Source of the DNA: Cupriavidus respiraculi
GTDB taxonomy: Bacteria > Pseudomonadota > Gammaproteobacteria > Burkholderiales > Burkholderiaceae
DNA: 64,000 nucleotides
Reading direction: 5' to 3'
Assembly: GCF_914271545.1 (NCBI RefSeq)
Contig: NZ_CAJZAH010000001.1
Coordinates: 1,116,001 to 1,180,000, forward strand
Positions within the stretch are counted from its first letter, which is position 1; each line of letters starts with the position of its first letter. The notes beneath the pieces were generated by a model, which had not been told where the DNA came from, made no database searches, and saw only the letters and a list, made by a program, of their open reading frames with translations. The position numbers and the translations under genes are program-made. This document shows positions 28,545 to 64,000 of this stretch, piece by piece.

Positions 28545-29504
28545 TCAGTCCTGCAGCGCGGCCCACATGTCCTTGTCGCGCTCCGCGGTCCACACGCGTG
28601 GATGCTTGATGCCGCTCGCTTCGTCGTAGGCACGGGCCACATCGAACGGCAGGCAGTGCTCGTAGATGAAGACGTGGCCGAACTTGGCGTCCATCGCCGC
28701 GCGGGTATGCGCCATCGCACCCTTCAGGTCCAGCTTCTTCTCGACGGCCTCGCGGCCGCGCTGCAGCAGCGTGGTGACGAAGTCGCGCGTGTAGTCCAGT
28801 CCCTTGGCGACCTCTTCCGGCGTGGTCAGGGCGGGACCGCGTCCCGGGACCAGCGCCTGGGGCTCCAGCGCGCGCAGAGCGTCCAGCGTGGCCGGCCATT
28901 CCTCGAGCTGCGCGTCGCCGCAATAGCAGGCGGCGTCGTACTCGACCAGATCGCCCGAGAACAGGATTTTCTGCGAGGGGATCCACACCACGGTGTCGCC
29001 CTTGGTGTGCCCGGGGCCCAGATGCATGATCCGGACTTCGAGCTTGCCGAGGAACAGCGTCAGCTCGCGCTCGAACACCACGGTGGGCCAGGTCAGCCCC
29101 GGCACCGTTTCCACGCCGGCGAACAGGCGCGGGAAGCGTTCGATCTCGGACTTCATGTCCGCCTCGCCGCGCTCCACGATCATCTCGTAGGTGCCGCGGC
29201 TGGCGATGATGTTCTGCGCTCCTTCGGCGAAGTACGCCGAGGCGCCAAGCACGCGCACCGCGTGATAGTGCGACAGCACCACGTGCTTGATGGGCTTGTC
29301 GGTCACCGAACGGATGCGGGCGATCAGGTCCTGCGCCATCGCGGGGGTCGCCGTGGTATCGACGATCAGCACGCTGTCGTCGCCGATGATGACGCCAGAG
29401 TTCGGGTCGCCCTCGGCGGTATAGGCGTAGGCGTTGTCGGACAGCCGGGTGAAGGTGACCTGCTTTTCCTGCAAGTCGGCCCGGGACGCGAAATCCTTGG
29501 TCAT
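28545..29504 (-). CDS. Metallo-beta-lactamase-fold protein with altered metal motif
   Basis: MBL-fold protein of 319 aa and first gene of the homogentisate operon. The canonical HxHxDH is replaced by HYHAVR (about residue 80), so the Asp and third His of metal site 2 are missing. Later ligands are kept: GPGHTKGDT near 165 and SGDLVEYD near 187. It may bind a single metal or be non-hydrolytic. A GAGGAG ribosome site precedes the ATG. Its role in aromatic breakdown, perhaps on a lactone or thioester, is unknown. Confidence 0.82.
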   Translation of the reverse strand: MTKDFASRADLQEKQVTFTRLSDNAYAYTAEGDPNSGVIIGDDSVLIVDTTATPAMAQDLIARIRSVTDKPIKHVVLSHYHAVRVLGASAYFAEGAQNIIASRGTYEMIVERGEADMKSEIERFPRLFAGVETVPGLTWPTVVFERELTLFLGKLEVRIMHLGPGHTKGDTVVWIPSQKILFSGDLVEYDAACYCGDAQLEEWPATLDALRALEPQALVPGRGPALTTPEEVAKGLDYTRDFVTTLLQRGREAVEKKLDLKGAMAHTRAAMDAKFGHVFIYEHCLPFDVARAYDEASGIKHPRVWTAERDKDMWAALQD

Positions 29505-32404: not shown

Positions 32405-35227
32405 TCACCGATACGCCGCCAGGATCTGCCCGCCGCCATAGCTGGATTGCCCGGCCACCTCCCCGCCCAGCGTCATCCTGATGGCGCAGTACTTGAACTC
32501 GGGGATCTTGCCGAACGGATCCAGCGCGGAATTGGTCAGCTTGTTGATGGCCGCCTCGTAGTAGCAGAACGGCACGAAGACCGCTCCGCGCGGCGTGCCA
32601 TCGTCGGCGCGCGCATACAGCGAGACCTCCCCGCGGCGCGACGTCAGCGTGACCACGTCGCCCGGCTTGCCGCCGAGCACGGCAAGGTCCAGCGGATGCA
32701 CCAGCGCCACCGGATCGGGCTCGATCGCGTCCAGCACGCCCGCGCGCCGCGTCATGCTTCCGGTATGCCAGTGCTCCAGTTGCCGGCCGGTGATCAGCAC
32801 CACCGGATAGTCGCTGTCCGGCTTCTCGGCCGCGGGAATGATGTCGGCGGGCACGAAGCGCGCGCGGCCGGAAGCGGTCGGGAAGGCGTCGGTGAAGATG
32901 ACCGGTTCGCCCGCGTCGCCCTCCTCCCGGCACGGATAGGTCACCGCATGGTCGCGCTCGAGCCGCTCCCACGTAATGCCGCCGATGCTGGGCATGGCGC
33001 GGCGCATCTCGTCGAACACGTCGGCCACACTGTCGTAGTGCCAGTCCAGGCCGAGCCGCGCCGCCAGCTGCTGGATGATCCACAGGTCCTGGCGCGCCTC
33101 GCCCGGCGGATCGATCGCCTGCCGGCCCAGCTGCACGATGCGATCGGTGTTCGTGAACGTGCCCGTCTTCTCGGGAAAGGCCGACGCCGGCAGCACCACG
33201 TCCGCCAGATATGCGGTCTCGGTCAGGAAGATGTCCTGCACCACCAGGTGGTCGAGCGAGGCCAGCGCCTCGCGCGCATGTCCGGCATCGGGATCGGACA
33301 TCGCGGGGTTCTCGCCCATGATGTACATGCCCCGCACCTCGCCGCGCTCGATGGCCTGCATTACCTCCACCACGGTCAGCCCCGGCTTGCGGTCCAGCGT
33401 CGTGCCCCACAACGATTCGAAGCGCTCGATGGCGGCGGGATCGTCCACGCGGCGGTAGTCCGGATACATCATCGGGATCAGCCCCGCATCGGAGGCCCCC
33501 TGCACGTTGTTCTGCCCGCGCAGCGGATGCAGGCCCGTGCCGGGCCGGCCGATCTGACCAGTCATCAGCGACAGCGCGATCAGGCAGCGCGCGTTGTCGG
33601 TGCCGTGCACGTGCTGCGACACGCCCATGCCCCACAGGATCATCGAGCCCTTCGAGGTCGCGAACAGCCGCGCGACATAGCGCAGCGTTTCCGCGTCGAT
33701 GCCGCAGATGGGCGCCATCGCCTCGGGGCTGTACGCGGCGACGTTGCGCTTCAGTTCCTCGTAGCCGATGGTGCGGCTGTCGATAAAGCCCTGATCCACC
33801 AGCCCTTCTTCCACGATGACATGCATCATGGCGTTGAGCATCGCCACGTCGGTATCCGCCTGGAACTGCAGGAAGCGATGCGCGAAGCGCGCCAGGTCCG
33901 AGCGGCGCGGATCCGCCACGATCAGCTTGGTGCCGTTCTTCACCGCGTTCTTGATCCAAGTCGCCGCCACCGGATGGTTGACGGTGGGATTGGCGCCGAT
34001 CACCAGCACCACCTCCGCCTTGCCCACATCCATCACAGGATTGGACACCGCGCCCGAGCCGATGCCCTCGAGCAGCGCCGCCACCGACGAGGCGTGGCAC
34101 AGCCGCGTGCAATGGTCCACGTTGTTGCTGCCGAAGCCCGTACGCACGAGCTTCTGGAACAGATAGGCCTCCTCGTTGCTGCCCTTGGCCGAGCCGAAGC
34201 CCGCCAGCGCCCGCTTGCCGTGCGTGTCGCGGATCTGGGCGAGCTTGCCGCCCGCCAGCGCCAGCGCCTCCTCCCAAGTGGCCTCGCGGAATACATCCAG
34301 CGCGCGCTCGGGGTCCATCACGGCATCGCCGCGCTTGGGCACGCCTTCGCGCCGGATCAGCGGCACGGTCAGCCGGTGGGGATGCTGCGCGTAGTCGAAA
34401 CCATAGCGGCCCTTCACGCACAGCCGCTTCTGGTTGGCGGGACCGTCCCGGCCCTCGACGTAGCGGATGCGGTTGTCCTTGACGTTGTAGGTCAGCTGGC
34501 AGCCGACGCCGCAATACGGACAGACCGAATCCACGCGCTTGTCCGGCACCGACAGCGCCGCGTCGCGCGCCGGCATCAGCGCGCCGGTGGGACATGCCTG
34601 CACGCATTCGCCACAGGCCACGCAGGTGGACGCGCCCATCGGGTCGCCCATGTCGAACACGATGGCCGCATGGTCGCCGCGAAACGCAAGCCCGATCACA
34701 TCGTTGACCTGCTCGTCACGGCAGGCGCGCACACAGCGCGTGCACTGGATGCAGGCGTCCAGGTTCACCGCGATGGCCGGATGCGACAGGTCGGGCGCGA
34801 CCGCCTCGCGCGGCGCGAAGCGCGGCTTGCCGATGCCGAGCCGGGCGGACCAGCGGTCCAGCTCGTTGTTGCGCGTGTAGTCCGCCTCGGGCATGTCCGA
34901 CTGCAACAGCTCCAGCACCATGGCCTGCGCCTTGCGCGCGCGGTCCGATGCCGTCTCCACGTTCATGCCTTCCGCGGGATAGCGGCAGCACGACGGAGCC
35001 AGCACGCGCTCGCCCTTGATCTCCACCATGCAGGCGCGGCAGTTGCCGGCCGGCTCCAGGCCGTCCTTGTAGCAAAGATGCGGCACGTCGCAGCCTTCGC
35101 GCCGCGCCACCGCGAGCAGCGTTTCGCCCGGTGCCGCGACGACCTCGCGGCCGTTCAGGCTGAACGTGATGGTGGCTTCGGACGAGGCCTGGACAAGCGC
35201 GCTTTCGGCGCGGGTGAGTGCGTTCAT
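32405..35227 (-). CDS. fdwA: NAD-dependent formate dehydrogenase, catalytic alpha subunit (Fdw/FDH1 type)
   Basis: Cytoplasmic molybdenum/tungsten-bis-MGD formate dehydrogenase subunit, 940 aa. It has an N-terminal [2Fe-2S] domain (Cys 52, 63, 66, 80), two [4Fe-4S] ferredoxin clusters (CIQCTRC near 159, CVACGEC near 202), a further cluster at CPYCGVGC near 236, and the active-site Cys-His in HCTRLCHAS (Cys377). It oxidises formate to CO2. It is the second gene of a two-gene operon with fdwB. The two-subunit layout with a fused beta subunit matches the tungsten-type FDH1 of Methylorubrum and FdwA of Cupriavidus. No FdhD or cofactor gene follows. Confidence 0.88.
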   Translation of the reverse strand: MNALTRAESALVQASSEATITFSLNGREVVAAPGETLLAVARREGCDVPHLCYKDGLEPAGNCRACMVEIKGERVLAPSCCRYPAEGMNVETASDRARKAQAMVLELLQSDMPEADYTRNNELDRWSARLGIGKPRFAPREAVAPDLSHPAIAVNLDACIQCTRCVRACRDEQVNDVIGLAFRGDHAAIVFDMGDPMGASTCVACGECVQACPTGALMPARDAALSVPDKRVDSVCPYCGVGCQLTYNVKDNRIRYVEGRDGPANQKRLCVKGRYGFDYAQHPHRLTVPLIRREGVPKRGDAVMDPERALDVFREATWEEALALAGGKLAQIRDTHGKRALAGFGSAKGSNEEAYLFQKLVRTGFGSNNVDHCTRLCHASSVAALLEGIGSGAVSNPVMDVGKAEVVLVIGANPTVNHPVAATWIKNAVKNGTKLIVADPRRSDLARFAHRFLQFQADTDVAMLNAMMHVIVEEGLVDQGFIDSRTIGYEELKRNVAAYSPEAMAPICGIDAETLRYVARLFATSKGSMILWGMGVSQHVHGTDNARCLIALSLMTGQIGRPGTGLHPLRGQNNVQGASDAGLIPMMYPDYRRVDDPAAIERFESLWGTTLDRKPGLTVVEVMQAIERGEVRGMYIMGENPAMSDPDAGHAREALASLDHLVVQDIFLTETAYLADVVLPASAFPEKTGTFTNTDRIVQLGRQAIDPPGEARQDLWIIQQLAARLGLDWHYDSVADVFDEMRRAMPSIGGITWERLERDHAVTYPCREEGDAGEPVIFTDAFPTASGRARFVPADIIPAAEKPDSDYPVVLITGRQLEHWHTGSMTRRAGVLDAIEPDPVALVHPLDLAVLGGKPGDVVTLTSRRGEVSLYARADDGTPRGAVFVPFCYYEAAINKLTNSALDPFGKIPEFKYCAIRMTLGGEVAGQSSYGGGQILAAYR

Positions 35228-35303: not shown

Positions 35304-37013
35304 TCAGGTCAGCTCGTGCGGGAAATAGCGGATCACGCAGTCGATGGGGTTGGGCGCGGCCTGGCCCAGCCCGCAGATCGACGCATCGCGCATCACCGCC
35401 GACAGGTCGCCCAGCGCCTCCAGATCCCATGCCGGTGTCCCGATCAGGTCCAGCGCCTTGGCGGTGCCCACGCGGCACGGCGTGCATTGGCCGCAGGACT
35501 CGTGCTTGAAGAAATGCATCAGGTTGCGCGCCACGTCCACCGCCCGGTCGTGATCGGACAGCACCACCACCGCGGCCGAGCCGATAAAGCAGCCATGCGG
35601 CTGCAGCGTGTCGAAGTCCAGCGGGATGTCCCCCATCGCGGCGGGCAGGATGCCGCCGGACGCGCCGCCCGGCAGGTAGCCATAGAAGCGGTGCCCATCC
35701 AGCATGCCTCCGCAGTATTCGTCGATCAGTTCGGTCACGGTGATGCCGGCGGGAGCCAGATGCACCCCCGGTCGTTTGACGCGGCCCGACACCGAGAACG
35801 AGCGCAGCCCCTTGCGGCCGTGCCGGCCCTCGGAGGCGAACCAGTCCGCGCCACGCTCCAGGATGTCGCGCACCCAGTAGAGCGTCTCGAAGTTGTGCTC
35901 CAGCGTGGGCCGCCCGAACAGGCCGACCTGCGCCACATAGGGCGGGCGCAGCCGCGGCATGCCGCGCTTGCCTTCGATCGATTCGATCATCGCGGACTCT
36001 TCGCCGCAGATATAGGCCCCGGCGCCGCGCCGCAGATGGATCGGCGGCATGTCCGCCAGCGGCGGATCGGCGCGCAGCGCCGCGATGGCTTCGGTCAGCA
36101 CCGCCCGGCAGCCCGCGTACTCGTCGCGCAGATAGATGTAGATGGCCTCGACCCCAACCACGCCCGCCGCGATCAGCATGCCTTCGAGGAAGCGATGCGG
36201 ATCGCGCTCCAGATAGACGCGGTCCTTGAACGTGCCGGGCTCGCCTTCGTCGATATTGATCGCCATCAGGCGCGGCGCCGCCTCGGCCCGCACGATGCGC
36301 CATTTGCGCCCCGTGGGGAAGCCCGCGCCACCCAAGCCGCGCAGCCCGGAATGCTCCATCGTGGCGATCACGGCCTCGGTATCCATCTGCCCGCTGGCGA
36401 TGGATTGCAACAGCCGGTAGCCGCCCTGCTCGCGATACGCGCCGAGGCCGATATAAGGCTCCGGCTCGTGGCGCACCGCACCGGCCTGCGCGGTTTCCGC
36501 AATCCGTTCGGCGCTGGCGCGATCGACCGGGTTCTGCCCCACCAGCGCCGCCGGCGCGCGTTCGCAGCGGCCGATGCAGGGTGCCGCGACCACTCGCACG
36601 TCGGCGCCGAGCACGTCCGGTAACCGGGCCAGCAGCGCTTGCGCGCCCGCCAGTTCGCAGGCAATGCCTTCGCACACGCGCACGGTCAACGACGGCGGCG
36701 GCGCGATGCCACCGTCGGCGTCCTCGCGGACCACATCGAAATGGTGATAGAAGGTCGCGACCTCGTAGACCTCGGCCTGCGCCATGCGCATCTCGTTGGC
36801 CAGCGCTGCGAGATGCGGCATGGCCAGCTGCCCGTAATGGTCATTGATCTTGTGCAGATGCTCGATCAGCAGATCGCGCCGGCGCGGCGCGTCGCCGAGC
36901 AGCGCGCGCACCTCGGCCAGCGCGGCGGGGTCGACCTGCCTGCCCTTGGGCTGCCGCCGCTTGCGGGCCTTGCCGATGCTCTCGACCGCGATGGGAATGA
37001 CGACCTGGTTCAT
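35304..37013 (-). CDS. fdwB: NAD-dependent formate dehydrogenase, beta subunit (NuoE-NuoF fusion)
   Basis: Diaphorase subunit of 569 aa that passes electrons from FdwA to NAD+. The first 155 residues are NuoE/FdsG-like with a [2Fe-2S] site (Cys 114, 119, 146, 150). The rest is NuoF/FdsB-like: FMN/NADH loop LGGAGFPTGRKW near 215, DEGEPGTFKDR near 245, and a [4Fe-4S] site SCGQCTPC near 510. In Fds enzymes these are two proteins; here they are fused. The gene precedes fdwA by 76 bp. A 20-bp element shared with the 63-kb operons lies 143-162 bp upstream of its start. Confidence 0.87.
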   Translation of the reverse strand: MNQVVIPIAVESIGKARKRRQPKGRQVDPAALAEVRALLGDAPRRRDLLIEHLHKINDHYGQLAMPHLAALANEMRMAQAEVYEVATFYHHFDVVREDADGGIAPPPSLTVRVCEGIACELAGAQALLARLPDVLGADVRVVAAPCIGRCERAPAALVGQNPVDRASAERIAETAQAGAVRHEPEPYIGLGAYREQGGYRLLQSIASGQMDTEAVIATMEHSGLRGLGGAGFPTGRKWRIVRAEAAPRLMAINIDEGEPGTFKDRVYLERDPHRFLEGMLIAAGVVGVEAIYIYLRDEYAGCRAVLTEAIAALRADPPLADMPPIHLRRGAGAYICGEESAMIESIEGKRGMPRLRPPYVAQVGLFGRPTLEHNFETLYWVRDILERGADWFASEGRHGRKGLRSFSVSGRVKRPGVHLAPAGITVTELIDEYCGGMLDGHRFYGYLPGGASGGILPAAMGDIPLDFDTLQPHGCFIGSAAVVVLSDHDRAVDVARNLMHFFKHESCGQCTPCRVGTAKALDLIGTPAWDLEALGDLSAVMRDASICGLGQAAPNPIDCVIRYFPHELT

Positions 37014-37155: not shown

Positions 37156-37175
37156 ATACAGTATGTGATATATCA
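37156..37175 (-). promoter_or_regulatory. Shared 20-bp regulatory element upstream of fdwB
   Basis: Read toward fdwB, the element is TGATATATCACATACTGTAT. It holds a perfect 10-bp palindrome (TGATATATCA) followed by an ATAC-T-GTAT palindrome. It matches the copy at 63549-63568 in 19 of 20 bases and that at 63748-63767 in 18 of 20. A TTGACT hexamer just upstream could be a -35, so the element would lie within the promoter. Confidence 0.75.
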
Positions 37176-37306
37176 AGCGAGTCAAGGCGGATTTAGCCTG
37201 AGGGTCCGCCTGTGGTGGGTACTGCGGGACAACAGGCAGGGCCCGGAAGTCTCCTTCCTGCACGCCCGGTCGTTGCCCGCGCCGGGTTCAGCCCGGCGCA
37301 ACCGAC

Positions 37307-38251
37307 TCAGCTCAACAGTTCTGGCTGGAGGCGCACAAGCTGCGCGGGCACCTCGGCCGGACGCTCGACATACTCGAGCCGCTTCATCGCATCCCAGATC
37401 GCCGCCGCATTGGGCTTGAGCGACCTGCTCTTGCGCCGCACCAGCATGACGGTGGAAACCACCTGCGGCCGCAACGGCCGGCACACCACGCCGGCATGCA
37501 CGCCGCCCTCGCGCGAGCGCGCCGGCACGATGCCAACGCCCTGCCCCATCCGCACCATGCCGAACACCGCGGAGAAATGCCCGAGCAACTGCAGCGAATC
37601 GACGCGCACGTGATAGTTGGCCAGGGCGCGCTCGACCGTGGGCCGCACGCCGCAGTTCTGGTCCAGCGTCAGCACGCGCGCATCGTTCAGGTCGCCCCAG
37701 GCGATGGACTCGCCGGCGGCCAGCGGATGGCCGGCGGGCAGCACCGCGTGATAGGGGTCCTGGCACAGCGGCTCGCAATACAGCTCCTCGCACGACGACG
37801 GATCGATGGCCAGCCCGAAGTCCACCTCGCCGCTGCGCACGCAGTGCAGCACCGCGTCCTGCGCCTTGTCGCGCAGCGCGACACCGATGGCGGGCCACGC
37901 TTCGCGGCAACCGGCCAGCCATGCCGGCAGCGACATCGACGACAACACCGGATCGGTGGCGATATGCACCACGCCCTGGCAAGGCCGCGCGCCGCCGTGG
38001 CTGTCGCGCAGGGTCTGCTCGACTTCCTCGATCAGATGGCAGATGCGTTGCGACAGATGCTCGCCCGCGTCCGTGAGTTCCACCTGGCGCGTGGTGCGAT
38101 CGAACAGACGCTGGTCGATTTCTTCCTCGAGCTCGCGCACGCTGCGGCTGATGGCCGATTGGGTCAGGCCGAGTTCCACGGCCGCCTTGGTAAAGCTCTT
38201 TTGCCGCGCGACGGCGGCAAACGCTTTCAATTGGGGAAGCGAGACATTCAT
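37307..38251 (-). CDS. LysR-family transcriptional regulator (upstream of fdwBA)
   Basis: LTTR of 314 aa. The winged HTH is at residues 1-60 (FAAVARQKSFTKAAVELGLT then QSAISRSVRELEEEI), followed by a periplasmic-binding-like effector domain. It lies 293 bp upstream of fdwB on the same strand, so it is a candidate regulator of formate dehydrogenase, though LTTRs more often diverge from their targets. The ATG at 38251 begins the usual LysR start (MNVSLPQLKAFAAVARQ). Confidence 0.87.
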   Translation of the reverse strand: MNVSLPQLKAFAAVARQKSFTKAAVELGLTQSAISRSVRELEEEIDQRLFDRTTRQVELTDAGEHLSQRICHLIEEVEQTLRDSHGGARPCQGVVHIATDPVLSSMSLPAWLAGCREAWPAIGVALRDKAQDAVLHCVRSGEVDFGLAIDPSSCEELYCEPLCQDPYHAVLPAGHPLAAGESIAWGDLNDARVLTLDQNCGVRPTVERALANYHVRVDSLQLLGHFSAVFGMVRMGQGVGIVPARSREGGVHAGVVCRPLRPQVVSTVMLVRRKSRSLKPNAAAIWDAMKRLEYVERPAEVPAQLVRLQPELLS

Positions 38252-57230: not shown

Positions 57231-58004
57231 TCACCCCCTCACATGATTCACCAGCGACCCAATGGCCTCGATGGTGACCTCCACCACCGCCCCATCCTTC
57301 ATCGACCCCACCCCCAACGACGTCCCGCACGCGATCACATCCCCGGGCATCAACGTCACGTCCTGCGAAATCCGGCTGACCTGCTCCTCGGGCGAGAAAA
57401 TCATGTCGCTCAACGGATAGTTCTGCCGCTCCACCCCGTCCAGCCGCGTCACCACACTGGCGTTGGGCCAGTCCAGTTCGGTAACGATGGCCGGCCCCAG
57501 GCAGCCGAAGGTGTCGAAGCCCTTGGCGCGGCACCACTGCGGAAAATTCGGGTCTTCGCCGATCAGTTCCGCCGCGGTCACGTCGTTGACGATGGTGTAG
57601 CCGAAGATATGGCTGGCGGCCTCGCCGACCGGTACGTTGCGGCTCTTGCGGCCGATGACGATGCCGAGCTCGCCCTCGTAGACGATCTTGCCGCCGTAGC
57701 TCTTGGGGCGTTCGATGGCGTCGCCGGGCCCGGCGAGCGAGGTCGCGGGCTTGATCAGGAACAGCGGATGCAGCGGCACGGGCTTTTCGAGCTTGCGGGC
57801 GAGCGCGTGGAAGTTGTTCCACAGCGCGACGATCTTGGCCGGCTGGCACGGGCTTAGCAGTTGCAGCCCTTCGCGCGCATGCGTGGCGCCCGTGGGGCTC
57901 GGGTCCTCGTAGCCCGGGCCGTCGTATTCCACCACGCGCTTGCCGTCGATCTGGCCGAAGCGCGCGCGCCCGTCGGCTCCCAGGTAGCGAATCCAGGTCT
58001 GCAC
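57231..58004 (-). CDS. Fumarylacetoacetate-hydrolase family protein
   Basis: FAH-family hydrolase or decarboxylase of 257 aa (HpcE/YcgM type, not the true fumarylacetoacetase). The metal-binding Glu region is KIVYEGELGIVIG near residue 105, with NDVTAAELIGEDPNFPQW and PGDVIACGTSLGVG later. It starts at GTG 58004 with a GGGGGAG ribosome site. Last gene of the ThDP/Frc operon, 127 bp after the synthetase. Such enzymes act on 2-oxo acids or acylpyruvates, so it may process a downstream keto acid. Confidence 0.83.
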   Translation of the reverse strand: MQTWIRYLGADGRARFGQIDGKRVVEYDGPGYEDPSPTGATHAREGLQLLSPCQPAKIVALWNNFHALARKLEKPVPLHPLFLIKPATSLAGPGDAIERPKSYGGKIVYEGELGIVIGRKSRNVPVGEAASHIFGYTIVNDVTAAELIGEDPNFPQWCRAKGFDTFGCLGPAIVTELDWPNASVVTRLDGVERQNYPLSDMIFSPEEQVSRISQDVTLMPGDVIACGTSLGVGSMKDGAVVEVTIEAIGSLVNHVRG

Positions 58005-58131
58005 GGTTGTTCTCCCCCTTCGCACGAGGGCCGCGTCTTGCGGCTGGCCTCGTGATCTCTCGGACGGACACGGGCACTGGCCGCGCCCGTGTCCCCTCCC
58101 CTTTTCAGTCGTGGCGATCGCTATGCCGCCT

Positions 58132-60261
58132 TCAGATCTTGCCGGCTCCCCGCGCCCACTTGTACTTGGCGCCCAGCACCGCCACCGGGATTTCGGTGGA
58201 GTATGCGTAGGCCGGCACGCCGTTCGCGTACAGGTGTTCCGCGGCTTCCTCCACCTGTACGTCGCCCGCAAGCGAGGCGACGATGGGCTTCTCGATGCCG
58301 CGCGCGGCCATCTCTTCCTTGACCTCGATCACGAGCTGCGCGAAGACCATCGGCGGGGTGATGATGGTGTGCCAGTAGCCGAGGATGATCGCGTGGATGC
58401 GCGGATCCTCCATGCCCAGCCGCAGCGTGTTCTTGTAGGTCGACGGCGGCTCGCCGCCGGTGATGTCCACGGGGTTGCCGGCGGCGCCGAACGGGGGGAT
58501 GAACTTGCGGAAGGCGGCGTCAAGGTCTTCGGGCATGGTCATCAGCGACAGGCCGTTGTCGACGCAGGCGTCCGACAGCAACACGCCCGAGCCGCCGGCG
58601 CCGGTGATGATCACCACGTTCTCGCCCTTGGGCGTGGGCAGCTTCGGAATGCCGCGCGCATATTCAAGCAGGTCGCGCAGCGAGCGCGCGCGGATCACGC
58701 CGCACTGCTTGAACACGTCTTCGTAGATGCGGTCGTTGCCCGCCAGCGCGCCGGTGTGCGAGCTTGCGGCGCGCGCGCCGAGGCTGGTACGGCCGGCCTT
58801 GAGCACCACCACCGGCTTGACCTTGGAGACGCGCCGCGCGGCTTCCGCGAAGGCGCGGCCGTCCTTCAGGTCCTCGCAATGCTGGGCGATGATCTCGGTG
58901 TTCTCGTCCTGCTCGAAGAAGGTGAGCAGATCGTCTTCGTCGATATCGGACTTGTTGCCCAGGCCGACGATGGCGGAAACGCCCATCTTGGCGGAGCGCG
59001 AGAAGCCAATGATGGCCATGCCGATGCCGCCCGACTGCGACGACAGCGCGGCCTTGCCCTTGACGTCATAAGGCGTGCAGAACGTGGCGCACAGGTTCTT
59101 GGGCGTGTAGTAGAAGCCGTAGATGTTCGGGCCCATCAGCCGGATATTGTGCTTGCGGGCGATGGCGACGATTTCTTCCTGCCCTTCCACGTTGCCCGTC
59201 TCGGCGAAGCCCGACGGGATCAGCACCGCACCGGGAATGCCCTTGCGGCCCACCTCTTCCAGCGCCTGCGCCACCAGCTTGGCGGGAATCGCGAACACGG
59301 CCACGTCGACGTTGCCCGGCACGTCCAGCACGCTCTTGTAGGCGGTCATGCCCATGATCTCGCCGGCCTTGGGGTGGATCGGAAAGATCTGTCCCTGGTA
59401 GCCGCCGTTGATCAGGTTCTTCATCACGGAATTGCCGATCTTGCCGTCCTCGGCCGAGGCGCCGATCACCGCGACCGTGTCGGGGCGCATGATGCGGTTC
59501 ATCTGCGTGACGATCTCTTCCTGGCTCGGCCGATAGCGCTCGGGCTGCGCGGCGAAATCCACCACGATGCGCACGTCGGCGGCGATCGCGCCGTCCTTGC
59601 TGGCGAACACGGGGTTCAGGTCCAGCTCGGAGATTTCCGGGAAGTCGGAGATCAGCTCGGACACCCGCTGGATCATGCTGGCCAGCGCCTCCCGGTTCAC
59701 CGGGTCCGCGCCACGCACGCCCTTGAGGATGTCGGCCGCGGCGATGCCGTCGAGCATCGACAGCGCGTCTTCCTGCGAGGCCGGGGCCAGGCGGAACGTA
59801 ATGTCCTTGAGCACCTCGACCAGCACGCCGCCCAGGCCGAAAGCCACCAGCTTGCCGAACGACGGATCGGTGACGGCGCCGATGATGACTTCCTGTCCGC
59901 CGCCGATCATCTGCTGGACCTGCACGCCGAGGATGTTGGCGTTGGGGTCGTACTTCTTGGCGTTCTCGACGATGGTCCGGTAGCCGGCCTCCACGTCGGC
60001 TTCGGTCTTCAGGCCCACCAGCACGCCGCCGGCCTCGGTCTTGTGCAGGATCTCCGGCGAGACGATCTTCATCACCACCGGGAAGCCCATCTGCGTGGCC
60101 AGCTCCACCGCATTGCTCGGACTCTTGGCCACGCCCTCGCCCGGCACCGCGATGCCATACGCATCGCACACCAGCTTGCCCTCGGGCGCGGTCAGCGCGC
60201 TGCGTCCTTCTTCCTTTACGGCGGCGAGGATCTTCCGCACCGCGTCCTTGTTGTGTGCCAT
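58132..60261 (-). CDS. Acyl-CoA synthetase (NDP-forming), fused ATP-grasp and CoA-binding domains
   Basis: ADP-forming acetate/acyl-CoA synthetase family protein, 709 aa. The N-terminal 230 residues are the ATP-grasp (beta-like) half (KIVSPEILHKTEAGGVLVGL), followed by the CoA-binding and ligase (alpha-like) half (DTVAVIGASAEDGKIGNSV). The phosphohistidine loop ASSHTGALAG is intact near residue 502. It interconverts an acyl-CoA and free acid with ATP formation or use. Third gene of the ThDP/Frc operon, 113 bp after the CoA-transferase. Confidence 0.87.
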   Translation of the reverse strand: MAHNKDAVRKILAAVKEEGRSALTAPEGKLVCDAYGIAVPGEGVAKSPSNAVELATQMGFPVVMKIVSPEILHKTEAGGVLVGLKTEADVEAGYRTIVENAKKYDPNANILGVQVQQMIGGGQEVIIGAVTDPSFGKLVAFGLGGVLVEVLKDITFRLAPASQEDALSMLDGIAAADILKGVRGADPVNREALASMIQRVSELISDFPEISELDLNPVFASKDGAIAADVRIVVDFAAQPERYRPSQEEIVTQMNRIMRPDTVAVIGASAEDGKIGNSVMKNLINGGYQGQIFPIHPKAGEIMGMTAYKSVLDVPGNVDVAVFAIPAKLVAQALEEVGRKGIPGAVLIPSGFAETGNVEGQEEIVAIARKHNIRLMGPNIYGFYYTPKNLCATFCTPYDVKGKAALSSQSGGIGMAIIGFSRSAKMGVSAIVGLGNKSDIDEDDLLTFFEQDENTEIIAQHCEDLKDGRAFAEAARRVSKVKPVVVLKAGRTSLGARAASSHTGALAGNDRIYEDVFKQCGVIRARSLRDLLEYARGIPKLPTPKGENVVIITGAGGSGVLLSDACVDNGLSLMTMPEDLDAAFRKFIPPFGAAGNPVDITGGEPPSTYKNTLRLGMEDPRIHAIILGYWHTIITPPMVFAQLVIEVKEEMAARGIEKPIVASLAGDVQVEEAAEHLYANGVPAYAYSTEIPVAVLGAKYKWARGAGKI

Positions 60262-60374: not shown

Positions 60375-61604
60375 TCAGACCGCGCCGGCGGCGCGCAGCG
60401 CCTCGATCTGCGCCGGCGTGCGGCCCAGCCATTCGAGGATGTCGCGCGTGTGCTCGCCCAGCAGCGGCGAGCGCTCGACCTCCACCGGCGAGGCCGACAG
60501 ATTGATCGGGCAGCCCAACTGCACATAGCGCCCGCGCTCGGGATGATCCAGCTCGACCAGGTAGCCGCGGTCGTACATCGACTGGTCCTCGATCAGGTCC
60601 TTCATCGAGAGGATCGGGCCACACGGCACATCGACCTCGTTCAGGGCCTGCATCACTTCGAGCTTGCCCATCGTGCGCGTCCACTTCTCGATGATGGAGA
60701 AGCATTCCTCCAGGCATTTGAGGCGCGCCTCGGGCGTGGCGAACTGCTCGTGGGTGATCAGGTCCTCGCGGCCGCACAGGCGCATCAGCGGCTCCCAGCC
60801 CTGCGGCTGGACGATGACGTAGACGTAGTCATTGGGGCCACCGGGGGCGCAGCGCAGCGCGGCGCCGGGCTGGCCGCCGCCCGAGGCATTGCCCGCGCGC
60901 GGCACGAAGTCGCCGAACTCCTTGTTGGGATACTCGCGCAGCGGTCCCGCCGCCAGTCGCTGCTGGTCGCGCAGCTTGACGCGGCACAGGTTCAGCACCG
61001 AGTCCTGCATCGCCACCTCGACGCGCTGGCCGCGGCCTGTCTTCTCCCGGTGCAGCAGCGCGGCCAGGATGCCGACCACGCAGTGCACGCCGGTGCCCGA
61101 ATCGCCGATCTGCGCGCCCGTCACGGTGGGCGTGCCGTCGGCGAAGCCGGTCGTCGACGCGGAGCCGCCCATGCATTGCGCGACGTTCTCGTAGGCCTTG
61201 CAGTCCGCGTACGGGCCGGGACCGAAGCCCTTGATGGAGGAATAGATCAGGCGCGGGTTGATCGTCTGCAGGCGATCCCAGTCGAAGCCCGCGCGGTCGA
61301 GCACGCCGGGGCCGAAGTTCTCGACCAGCACGTCGCATCTGGCGACCAGTTCCTCCAGCACGGCCTTGCCCTCGGCCGTCTTCATGTTCAGCGTCAGGCT
61401 GCGCTTGTTGGAGTTCAGCATGGTGAAGTACAGGCTGTCCGCGTTGGGCACATCCCGCAGCTGGCTTCGCGTGATGTCCCCCCGCCCCGGCAGCTCCACC
61501 TTGATGACATCCGCGCCCAGCCACGCCATCAACTGCGTGGCCGACGGGCCTGCCTGCACATGCGTCATATCGAGAATGCGCACACCTTCCAGTGCTTTGC
61601 TCAT
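60375..61604 (-). CDS. frc: Formyl-CoA:oxalate CoA-transferase family protein (Frc/YfdW type)
   Basis: Class III CoA-transferase of 409 aa, closely following Frc. It has [20 protein letters not shown] at the start, the catalytic Asp168 in IGDSGTGVH, the glycine loop [10 protein letters not shown], and long shared stretches such as [15 protein letters not shown]. Position 48 is Gln, as in E. coli YfdW, not the Trp of Oxalobacter Frc. It would move CoA from formyl-CoA to an acid such as oxalate, releasing formate. It sits 43 bp after the ThDP enzyme. The acid acceptor is unproven here because no typical oxalyl-CoA decarboxylase is adjacent. Confidence 0.83.
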
Positions 61605-61647: not shown

Positions 61648-63402
61648 TTACTTGTACATGGTCTGGTTCTTGGTGCCAGGCGCGTACTCGCGCGGATCGA
61701 CCCAGATGTTGATGACCGCGGACTTGCCGGTGCGCTGGATCGATTCGCGGCCGCGCTGCAGGGCCGCGGCGATGTCCTTGGGGTCGCGCACTTCCTCGCC
61801 GTAGCCGCCCAGCATCTCGGCGAACTTGCTGAACGGCACGTCCGACAGCAGGTTCCCCACGTTGCCGCGCTCGTCGCCGTACTTCGCCAGCTGGCCGTAG
61901 CGGATCTGGTTCATCGCCGAGTTGTTGCCGATCACGGCGAGATAGGGCACGCCGAAGCGGTTGGCCGACTCCATGTCGAAGGCCGTCATGCCGAAGGAGC
62001 CGTCGCCGTAGTAGCAGAGGATTTCCTTGCCGGGATTGGCCAGGCCCGCCGCGATGGCAAAGCCCGTGCCGACACCCAACGACCCGAGCGCACCCGGGTC
62101 CATCCACTGGCCGGGACGACGCGGACGCACCGCCTGCGCGGAGATGGTCACCACGTCCCCGCCGTCGCCGATATAGACGGTGTCGTCCGACAGGAACTCG
62201 TTGAGCTCATAGGCCACGCGGTAGGGATGGATCGGCGTGTTGTCCGACTTGAACAGCGGCATCAGCTTCTCGGTGGCGACGGCCTCCGCCTCGGTGAGCT
62301 TGCCCATCCACTGCTTGCGCGCCTGGCGCTTGTCGTTCTTGATGCGGCCGCTGGCGGCCTGCAGCACCGCGCCGAGGATCGCGCCCGGGTCGCCCACCAG
62401 ACCGAGGTCGATGTCGCGGTTCTTGCCGACGGTGCGGTAATCCATATCGATCTGCACCAGCGTCAGTTCCTTGTTGATGCGCTTGCCGTAGCCCATGCGG
62501 AAGTCGAACGGCGTGCCGACGATGATCAGCACGTCCGCATTGGAAAACGCCTGCGAACGGGTGCGATCGAAATGGTGCGGATCGCCCGGTGGCAGCAGCC
62601 CGCGGCTCGCGCCGTTGAAGTAGCCGGGGATATCGAGCCCGCGCAGCAGCGCGATGGCTTCCTCGTGGCCACGCGCGGTCCAGACTTGCTGGCCGTAGAG
62701 GATGGCCGGACGCTCGGCGTTGACCAGGATGTCCGCGAGCTTCTCGATGTCGCGCGGATCGCCGATGGAGCGCGTCGAGGCGCGATAGCGGCCGGGAGTC
62801 GGAATCACCGCGCGGGACAGGTCCACTTCACGGTCGAGCACGTCGCGCGGAATCTCGAGGTAGGCAGGTCCCGGCGCGCCGTTGAAGCATTCGCGCGCGG
62901 CCATCGAGATCATGTCGGCCACGCGCTCGGTGCTGGGGATGCTGGCGGCGAACTTGGTGATCGGGGCCATCATGTCCACGTGGGGAAGGTCCTGCAGCGA
63001 GCCCATCTTGTGCTGGGTCAGCGCGCCCTGCCCGCCGATATGCAGCACGGGGCTTTCCGAGCGGAAGGCGGTCGCCACGCCGGTGACCGCGTTCGTGCAG
63101 CCCGGACCTGCGGTGGTCACCACGCATCCCAGTTTGCCGGTCTGGCGGGCATAGCCGTCCGCGGCGTGCGCCGCGACCTGCTCGTGGCGCACGTCGATGA
63201 TGCGGATGCCCTCGTCCACGCAGCCGTCGTAGATATCGATGATGTGCCCGCCGCAGAGCGTGAAGATGGTGTCCACGCCTTCGTTCTTCAGGGCACGCGC
63301 CACCAGATGGCCGCCGGATACGACGCCGGCCTCCCGGGTCTTCTGTTTCAGGGTGTCTTCGGCCGTGGTCGATTCGGACCGCAGGGATACGACTGCAGAC
63401 AT
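61648..63402 (-). CDS. Thiamine-diphosphate-dependent enzyme (Oxc/HACL/acetolactate-synthase superfamily)
   Basis: ThDP enzyme of 584 aa. The catalytic Glu74 is in [16 protein letters not shown], the three-domain layout is complete, and the ThDP/Mg motif begins GDGSFGM near residue 466 and ends in GNNSAMNQ. Position next to Frc suggests oxalyl-CoA decarboxylase or 2-hydroxyacyl-CoA lyase. However, the N-terminal segment [13 protein letters not shown] differs from the GVVGIP(I/V)T of known Oxc, so I leave the reaction open. First gene of the operon; a 20-bp shared element lies 147-166 bp upstream. Confidence 0.82.
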
Positions 63403-63548: not shown

Positions 63549-63568
63549 ATACCGTATGTGATATATCA
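63549..63568 (-). promoter_or_regulatory. Shared 20-bp regulatory element upstream of the ThDP operon
   Basis: Read toward the ThDP gene, it is TGATATATCACATACGGTAT, 19 of 20 identical to the fdwB copy. The ATACGGTAT part is an imperfect second palindrome and TGATATATCA a perfect one. Confidence 0.75.
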
Positions 63569-63747
63569 GAGAAGAACAAGGAGAAAATGGTATTGGTAGG
63601 GCGTATTTCGACGCGGCGTTGCAGCAATATTGGCTGCACGTTCCATGACGATGAGCGCTGTTTCTGAAAAACGCTCGATTCAGTCGGACCGCTCACAAGC
63701 GCCGGGATTTCATCTCAACGGCCTAACGAGTTCCCCTTGGAATGCCG

Positions 63748-63767
63748 TGATATATCACATACGATAT
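63748..63767 (+). promoter_or_regulatory. Shared 20-bp regulatory element upstream of the CoA-ligase gene
   Basis: TGATATATCACATACGATAT matches the ThDP-operon copy in 19 of 20 bases and points toward the rightward CoA-ligase gene, whose GTG start is 60 bp away. All three copies have the same orientation relative to their genes. Confidence 0.75.
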
Positions 63768-63826: not shown

Positions 63827-64000
63827 GTGAACATCCACGAATATCAAGCCAAGGAACTGCTGCGCCGGTACGACGTGCCGGTGCCGCGCGGCGCGCTGGC
63901 CTTTACGCCCGAGGACGCCGGCATCGCGGCCCGCAAGCTGGGAGGACCCATCTGGGTCGTGAAGTCGCAGATCCACGCCGGCGGCCGCGGCGCGGGGCGC
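63827..64000 (+). CDS. Succinate/malate-CoA ligase beta subunit, 5' end (runs off the window)
   Basis: First 58 codons only. The N-terminus [20 protein letters not shown] and the ATP-grasp segment [13 protein letters not shown] are diagnostic for SucC/MtkA-type subunits, which form acyl-CoA from a dicarboxylic acid with ATP. The form AGGRGAGR differs from the AGGRGKAGG of housekeeping SucC as I recall it, hinting at a specialised paralogue such as malate-CoA ligase. GTG 63827 has an AGGAG site 3 bases upstream, a short gap. It diverges from the ThDP operon and shares its 20-bp element. Confidence 0.85.

Follow-up and report, generated by a model that had tools for sequence, protein, structure and literature searches.

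The window analysed here is a 64,000-nucleotide stretch of the Cupriavidus respiraculi genome (G000:C1:1116001-1180000). It contains, on the minus strand, the formate dehydrogenase genes fdwB (35304..37013), which encodes a fused NuoE/NuoF-type diaphorase subunit with Complex1_51K and 2Fe-2S thioredoxin domains, and fdwA (32405..35227), which encodes the catalytic subunit (TIGR01591: 757.7 bits, cut-off 666.25). A gene for a LysR-type regulator (37307..38251, minus) adjoins fdwB. A second group on the minus strand consists of a gene for a ThDP-dependent enzyme resembling 2-hydroxyacyl-CoA lyases (61648..63402), the formyl-CoA transferase gene frc (60375..61604; TIGR03253: 628 bits, cut-off 504.2) and a gene for an ADP-forming acyl-CoA ligase of 709 aa (58132..60261; PF13549, PF13607 and PF19045, with no NCBIfam cut-off reached). 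This ThDP-enzyme/frc operon is followed by a gene for a fumarylacetoacetate-hydrolase-family protein (57231..58271, minus; all models below cut-off). A relative of that gene is also found behind the operon in several relatives' loci, and it is a likely but unproven member of the operon. On the plus strand, a sucC-like gene for a CoA ligase beta subunit starts at 63827 and runs beyond the window, which ends at 64000 (L007:1828-3024; NF001913: 589.5 bits, cut-off 370). Past the window edge the gene order is sucC, sucD, gntR, panE. Elsewhere in the window, an MBL-fold protein (28545-29504, minus) matched many metallo-beta-lactamase models below their curated cut-offs among its best 25 matches, and its best models were SoxH-related quinoprotein relay hydrolases.

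The ThDP-dependent enzyme scored 220.5 bits against the model for oxalyl-CoA decarboxylase (Oxc; TIGR03254, cut-off 739.4), which was the best of nine matches in the genome. It is without the DLQQGDYEEMDQ-type stretch of canonical Oxc and has different residues at that position. A canonical Oxc is ruled out for this gene by the score far under the cut-off and by the missing stretch. No canonical oxc above the TIGR03254 cut-off was found in the window genome, and among the 59 Cupriavidus genomes of the family draw, canonical oxc at E<=1e-200 is absent from 17 others. The nearest solved relatives of the enzyme by sequence are the 2-hydroxyacyl-CoA lyases PDB 7PT1-7PT4 (E 6e-78), with which it has the MGxLQDxPH stretch in common. 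It differs from them in that its gene sits with frc and the putative regulon operator described below.

A 15-bp element, TGATATATCACATAC, is present in the window in three exact copies, at 37161-37175 (minus), 63554-63568 (minus) and 63748-63762 (plus). A window scan allowing three mismatches gave four matches, the fourth being an overlapping reverse reading of one site. In shuffled windows the mean was 0.10 matches, and none of 100 shuffles reached four. Extended to 20-mers, the three copies have the ends TGTAT, GGTAT and GATAT and are identical at 18-19 of 20 positions. The preliminary description of this DNA had reported this degree of identity and judged it not to be due to chance, which the three exact 15-mers and the shuffled windows confirm. 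It had counted three occurrences, a number that is correct for the window. A search of the whole genome (5,594,073 bases) allowing two mismatches found six sites, all exact, and not one copy with one or two mismatches in the 5.59 Mb. With a first-order model of the window composition, the chance expectation in the genome is 0.0003 exact, 0.02 one-mismatch and 0.7 two-mismatch copies. As a control, the reversed pattern gave one match in the same genome at up to two mismatches and none in 398 family genomes at zero mismatches. At looser settings it gave one match in 60 Cupriavidus genomes (one mismatch), two in G003 and one in G048. The shuffles, the genome search and the family-wide control rule out a chance repeat as the origin of the element.

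The six sites precede fdwBA, the ThDP-enzyme/frc operon, sucCD, panE (on the opposite strand), an oxalate/formate antiporter gene and a 49-codon ORF. Each of the three window sites is directed at its downstream gene, with fdwB 147 bp, the ThDP gene 151 bp and sucC 64 bp further on. The preliminary description had claimed a common direction relative to the downstream gene; this holds for the window sites but not for the panE site, which is oriented away from panE. That fourth site lies in the gap between panE (minus) and mdoG (plus), and gntR follows panE. Its orientation suggested mdoG as the target, a reading that we rejected because the site stays with panE in relatives: 27 of 33 panE-adjacent sites in the relatives' loci have no mdoG start inside 420 bp. 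The antiporter gene (L007:13640-14965) encodes an MFS protein that scored 578.2 bits against TIGR04259 (equivalog cut-off 335) and is thus assigned as an oxalate/formate antiporter (OxlT). The second antiporter of a relative (L261) scored 631 bits with the same model. As a separate observation, the periplasmic glucan gene mdoG (L007:5974-7740, plus) begins about 45 bp past the panE site and could be co-regulated.

The element contains a 10-bp palindromic core, TGATATATCA, and a conserved flanking arm, CATAC. Two of 80 gntR loci have the full palindrome of 20 bp, GTATGTGATATATCACATAC, in perfect form: L066 at gntR and L075 at the ThDP operon. From the palindrome, the preliminary description had proposed a GntR-like dimer and left the regulator unnamed. 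By gene position and co-occurrence across genomes, the candidate is now an FCD-type GntR gene (gntR) located 2 kb beyond the end of the window, with sucCD on one side and panE on the other (C1:1181994-1182755; L007:3995-4756). These coordinates assume that translation starts at an ATG found 64 bp downstream of TGATATACCTTATAT, which weakly resembles the operator. The predicted protein has a GntR winged-helix domain (PF00392: 46.4 bits, cut-off 27) and an FCD effector domain (PF07729: 92.5 bits, cut-off 24.3). The stretch SRTP(I/V)REAM is present in 21 of 21 aligned GntR sequences, and H147, H191 and H213 (numbering of the aligned 229-residue stretch), which may be the FCD metal ligands, are invariant in all of them. 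The closest related gntR loci are those of Cupriavidus. Sequence matches in the PDB include 3SXY, which is the FadR-subfamily protein TM0439 (PMC4494728, in excerpt). A site with at most one mismatch was found ahead of gntR itself in 28 of the 80 gntR loci (27 Paraburkholderia, 1 Burkholderia), and a weaker TGATATACCATATAC ahead of or at the gntR start in 32 further loci; in the window genome, the upstream TGATATACCTTATAT is four mismatches from the operator. The protein is thus a probable member of the FadR subfamily whose gene would belong to its own regulon, with a site before the gene.

Motif and regulator gene largely co-occur. In 60 Cupriavidus genomes, the window's included, the motif (up to one mismatch) and gntR (E<=1e-60) were found in the same 56, and both were missing from the same four (G003, G006, G016 and G048; Fisher p 2e-6, ignoring descent). 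One member of this genus set, G047, is outside the family draw of 398 genomes. In that draw the exact motif was present in 147 genomes and gntR (E<=1e-80) in 197, with 146 having both; among the 251 genomes without an exact motif, 51 carried gntR. In genus g20, 53 of 59 genomes had both and six had neither, an agreement of 59/59, and in genus g1 the exact motif was present in 54 of the 55 gntR-bearing genomes. In genus g9, all 37 motif genomes had gntR, and 14 genomes had gntR without an exact motif. Genus g10 contributed 28 gntR-bearing genomes without an exact motif, in most of which the homologue is more divergent (E about 1e-106), and four other genera contributed eight.

Six of the 51 gntR-only genomes were examined, and all have variant sites with one or two mismatches, of which the two-mismatch variants weigh little, given that about 0.7 per genome is expected by chance and that the reversed control gives such matches too. 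At least one variant site was on the contig carrying gntR in five of the six, and in the sixth (G136) two of three variant sites were on the contig of its oxc. The sole genome of the family with an exact motif but without a gntR match at E<=1e-80 is G265; by eye, its exact site is about 35 bp before a PanE-type gene on a short contig. We also considered whether the motif was tied to canonical oxc instead of gntR. Fifty g12 genomes with canonical oxc (E<=1e-200) had neither gntR nor an exact motif, and 13 of the 14 gntR-bearing Cupriavidus genomes without canonical oxc keep the exact motif, which rules out such a tie and indicates that the motif tracks the regulator, not the enzyme. In G003 (L258) and G048 (L259), where fdwB or fdwBA is present and gntR absent, there was no site in the approximately 2 kb upstream of fdwB. 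These two genomes are possible natural cases of regulator loss.

The positions of the sites are conserved in relatives. In the fdwB region of 12 relatives, an exact or one-mismatch copy was found either before fdwB (three relatives) or before a second antiporter gene ahead of fdwB (nine relatives); the window genome is like the three, the site standing immediately ahead of fdwB. Among 17 distal sites far from gntR, chosen among the matches listed in the genus search, 16 precede an oxlT orthologue (87-91% identical, the lowest values being 87.1 and 87.4%). The exception is a one-mismatch site in G001 (L252; G001:C2:656932-656946), which by eye precedes a histone-deacetylase-family-like ORF and may be due to chance. 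An exact site was present upstream in 10/10 canonical oxc loci examined, all of them from this genus, while 203 genomes have an oxc match. The site before the ThDP-enzyme/frc operon is kept ahead of this operon in relatives, and among 14 sites that face sucC in relatives, 11 have the sequence TGATATATTACATAC and three are exact. Scattered or unconserved sites, which the preliminary description had named as a check on its proposal, were not what the genome and its relatives showed: sites are linked to promoters and conserved ahead of orthologues. Its "CoA-ester metabolism" can be narrowed to oxalate/formyl-CoA metabolism in many relatives; the window genome, whose ThDP enzyme is not a canonical Oxc, may share it. 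Among the loci listed (L026, L027, L029, L033 and L034), Cupriavidus species differ in where sucCD, the ThDP/frc operon and additional frc paralogues lie around gntR and in how these are combined.

The 80 gntR loci contain 231 sites with at most one mismatch, a count that leaves out sites fewer than 60 bases from a locus end, and these represent 222 unique sequences. A TTG was found at offset -11 from the site in 106 of 122 unique forward-facing promoter sites, and the next best offset had 12/122. Counted among the 122 are sites directed at a gene assigned as frc, ThDP, sucC or oxlT and sites with no assigned gene ahead of them; those oriented away from their assigned gene, or located at gntR or mdoG, are omitted. 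When all 222 unique sequences were counted, the TTG letters were still the commonest at -11 (56, 63 and 59%). This TTG is paired with TACnnT at offset +12, giving a 17-bp spacer. In the window genome, four forward-facing sites have TTG at -11 or -10 plus TACnnT, and the promoter elements in the window, which are consensus matches only, are as follows. At fdwB, a -35-like TTGACT (37180..37185, minus) is located 16 bp before a -10-like TACTGT (37158..37163, minus) that overlaps the right arm of the operator. At the ThDP operon, TTGTTC at offset -11 (63574..63579, minus) is followed after 17 bp by TACGGT (63551..63556, minus), and at sucC, TTGGAA at offset -11 (63737..63742, plus) is followed after 17 bp by TACGAT (63760..63765, plus).

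The assignment of the -10 element is not unique: a 15-bp spacer scores 6.32 versus 6.34, and the motif's own TTGATA taken as -35 scores 6.41. In every -10 reading the operator overlaps the core promoter, from which we infer repression. On the panE strand, the best-scoring promoter-like pair overlaps the site as well. The layout is a different one at two kinds of gene. In the 28 loci with a site ahead of gntR, the promoter is downstream of the operator, with the -35 at +21, a 17-bp spacer and the -10 at +44, and the small ORF has the same layout in 14 Cupriavidus loci, the window genome included. The operator centre is near -50 at both genes, so that simple occlusion does not apply there, the site being upstream of the promoter.

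Computation establishes the sites, their conservation, their co-occurrence with gntR and the fixed -35-like geometry. We propose that the element is very probably the operator of one FCD-type GntR repressor that coordinates oxalate-pathway genes; binding, repression and ligand are predictions from sequence. A GntR dimer would bind the 10-bp palindrome TGATATATCA plus the CATAC arm, with GTATGTGATATATCACATAC as the full palindrome. At fdwBA, the ThDP/frc operon, sucCD and the oxalate/formate antiporter gene the site would lie on the core promoter, and the bound regulator would keep RNA polymerase off until a metabolite of the oxalate pathway, most likely oxalate, glyoxylate or oxalyl-CoA, releases it. 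Release would then lead to the coordinated import of oxalate, its activation and breakdown via CoA esters to formate, the generation of NADH by formate oxidation, and assimilation by way of a putative PanE/ApbA2-type oxalyl-CoA/glyoxylate reductase. Two earlier suggestions gain support here: the single regulon joining formate oxidation (fdwBA) with CoA-ester metabolism, from the targets, their conservation and the co-occurrence, and the GntR-like dimer, from the FCD-type GntR gene that co-occurs with the motif. We regard this as a solid prediction of a new regulon within known biology. The degradation of oxalate by bacteria in soil is important to the carbon cycle and to the protection of plants; the open-access literature searched revealed no regulator of the pathway. 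What is gained is a candidate regulator, an exact predicted operator and a list of targets that includes an undescribed small protein. The genomes without regulator and sites provide natural controls, and the predicted oxalate-responsive switch is directly testable.

Operators of the FadR subfamily have the consensus NyGTM-N0-1-KACNy, and members with other motifs exist, such as BioR with TTATMKATAA (PMC4494728, in excerpt). The element described here departs from this consensus in that GTGATATATCAC has eight bases between GT and AC, which limits the class of the operator, not the family of the protein. With FCD-type GntR regulators of small-carboxylate regulons such as GlcC, LldR and PdhR (PMC4494728, same excerpt), the proposed system has in common the domains, a palindromic operator, a regulator gene in the locus and an organic-acid pathway. 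It differs from these in that TGATATATCA is off the subfamily consensus, without the canonical GT..AC boxes. An oxalate/formyl-CoA/formate gene set under such a regulator was not found described in the open-access literature searched. The likeness to BioR consists in the same 4-2-4 layout, TTAT-MK-ATAA versus TGAT-AT-ATCA here, and BioR is also an exception to the GT..AC consensus (PMC4494728, as excerpted). However, the outer bases differ and an extra CATAC arm is conserved here, and the comparison is one of operators, not of proteins. BioR governs biotin regulation.

The target genes are of the same kind as those of oxalate catabolism in C. necator (PMC7486775, in part). In that organism apbA2, which encodes the PanE-type protein ApbA2 of oxalate assimilation, is located near frc-oxc; deletion of apbA2 slows growth on oxalate and deletion of frc-oxc abolishes it (PMC7486775, available sections). 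In contrast, canonical oxc is absent from the window genome. The available sections of PMC7486775 name no regulator of frc-oxc or apbA2, the word 'regulator' being found only in a reference on H2 sensing. Among the matches listed, open-access titles and abstract beginnings described neither a GntR regulator of oxalate genes nor this operator in related bacteria. The accessible text of PMC12927642 and PMC9476978 had no match for 'regulator', and that of PMC5987411 mentions GntR proteins in general only.

Several other explanations of the element were weighed against a GntR repressor. The position of the site centre near -50, upstream of a good promoter, at gntR (28 loci) and at the small ORF (14 loci) would be expected if the GntR protein were mainly a metabolite-requiring activator, and dual FadR-type regulators exist. 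At the forward-facing metabolic genes, however, the site has a fixed position between or over the -35-like and -10-like elements, where a bound protein would normally block the polymerase. We therefore consider an activator unlikely as the main function and prefer repression for these genes.

A further alternative concerns the paired sites at 63.55 and 63.75 kb, which might loop the DNA, or of which one might be an auxiliary operator of the other. The preliminary description had given their distance as 199 bp and found it suitable for DNA looping. That value measures the 20-mers from start to start; between the palindrome centres the distance is 189 bp, which corresponds to 18.0 turns of 10.5 bp. 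In relatives, both sides have TTG at -11 or -10 in 9 of 38 divergent site pairs and at least one site lacks it in 29 of the 38, and some second sites may therefore be auxiliary operators. On the other hand, the spacings of 48 neighbouring pairs 20-320 bp apart (29 distinct combinations of distance and orientation) extend over 110 to 272 bp and show no preferred helical phase (Rayleigh test at 10.5 bp, p about 0.41), so that the suggested looping was not borne out. Moreover, each site of the window pair has its own TTG at -11 plus a gene to serve. Looping or an auxiliary role within this pair is accordingly quite improbable, and we favour two operators of the GntR repressor.

We judged it slightly less probable again that the element is bound not by the GntR protein but by the LysR-type regulator encoded beside fdwB (37307-38251). 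The LysR gene is present in 55 of the 60 Cupriavidus genomes; it is missing from the four that lack motif and gntR and from one more, and in the relatives examined it adjoins fdwB or small-ORF sites. This co-occurrence was counted within the genus, and the case against the LysR gene by distribution is one genome, G058, which has no LysR match at E<=1e-95 and yet carries gntR together with two exact sites, one at the ThDP gene and one at panE. LysR proteins prefer T-N11-A sites near -65, whereas the element is a strict 10-bp palindrome that is mostly located on the core promoter and stands ahead of gntR in 28 loci. Of the six sites in the window genome, five are away from this LysR gene. These points favour the GntR protein as the binding partner. 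Finally, a core-promoter or sigma-factor signature, as the fixed TTG-N17-TACnnT of most forward-facing target promoters might suggest, is very improbable, as the element is also found upstream of a separate complete promoter (gntR, small ORF) and reversed at panE, and the Cupriavidus genomes that lack it are the very ones that lack gntR.

The sixth site precedes a 49-codon membrane-like ORF on contig C2 (L008:7051-7200; C2:119053-119199, minus). Relatives of this small ORF have 46-73 codons, and its layout of operator and promoter is common to 13 other Cupriavidus loci. In the relatives whose fdwB region was examined, forms of 70-73 codons lie near lysR and the second antiporter gene or fdwB. 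The predicted protein has a hydrophobic N-terminal half, and most longer forms contain HGRFAG(L/F)GS. The ratio pN/pS was below 1 in 90 of 91 pairs (median 0.66), which supports translation of the ORF under constraint that is only moderate. The small protein had no match in Pfam at E<=1, and a search of 60 genomes gave two matches with E below 0.01, the protein of the window genome itself and another in G008, a genome that carries both a short (L140) and a long (L257) form. With so few protein matches, the spread of the small ORF was traced via the operator, not by similarity alone.

The two site geometries may be combined in a wider reading, which we offer tentatively and with more doubt than confidence. 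In it, an FCD-GntR protein with a non-canonical, BioR-like 4-2-4 operator would act in two geometries, repressing oxalate and formate genes inside their promoters and, from about -50, driving gntR in Paraburkholderia and the membrane-like protein of 70-73 residues in Cupriavidus (49 residues in the window genome). The small protein would be a new accessory of oxalate/formate exchange or of formate dehydrogenase, and in the window lineage the regulon would have recruited the 2-hydroxyacyl-CoA-lyase-like enzyme as a substitute for canonical Oxc. That the C2 site is unrelated to the regulon, as its neighbouring efflux cluster might suggest, was set aside; relatives of the small ORF adjoin the fdwB region elsewhere. 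In the window genome (stretch L008:2351-12539), the sixth operator is located, with no evident link to oxalate, just after a NodT-type efflux outer-membrane gene, and a CusF-like gene (below cut-off) and a DUF3300 gene are found beyond it.
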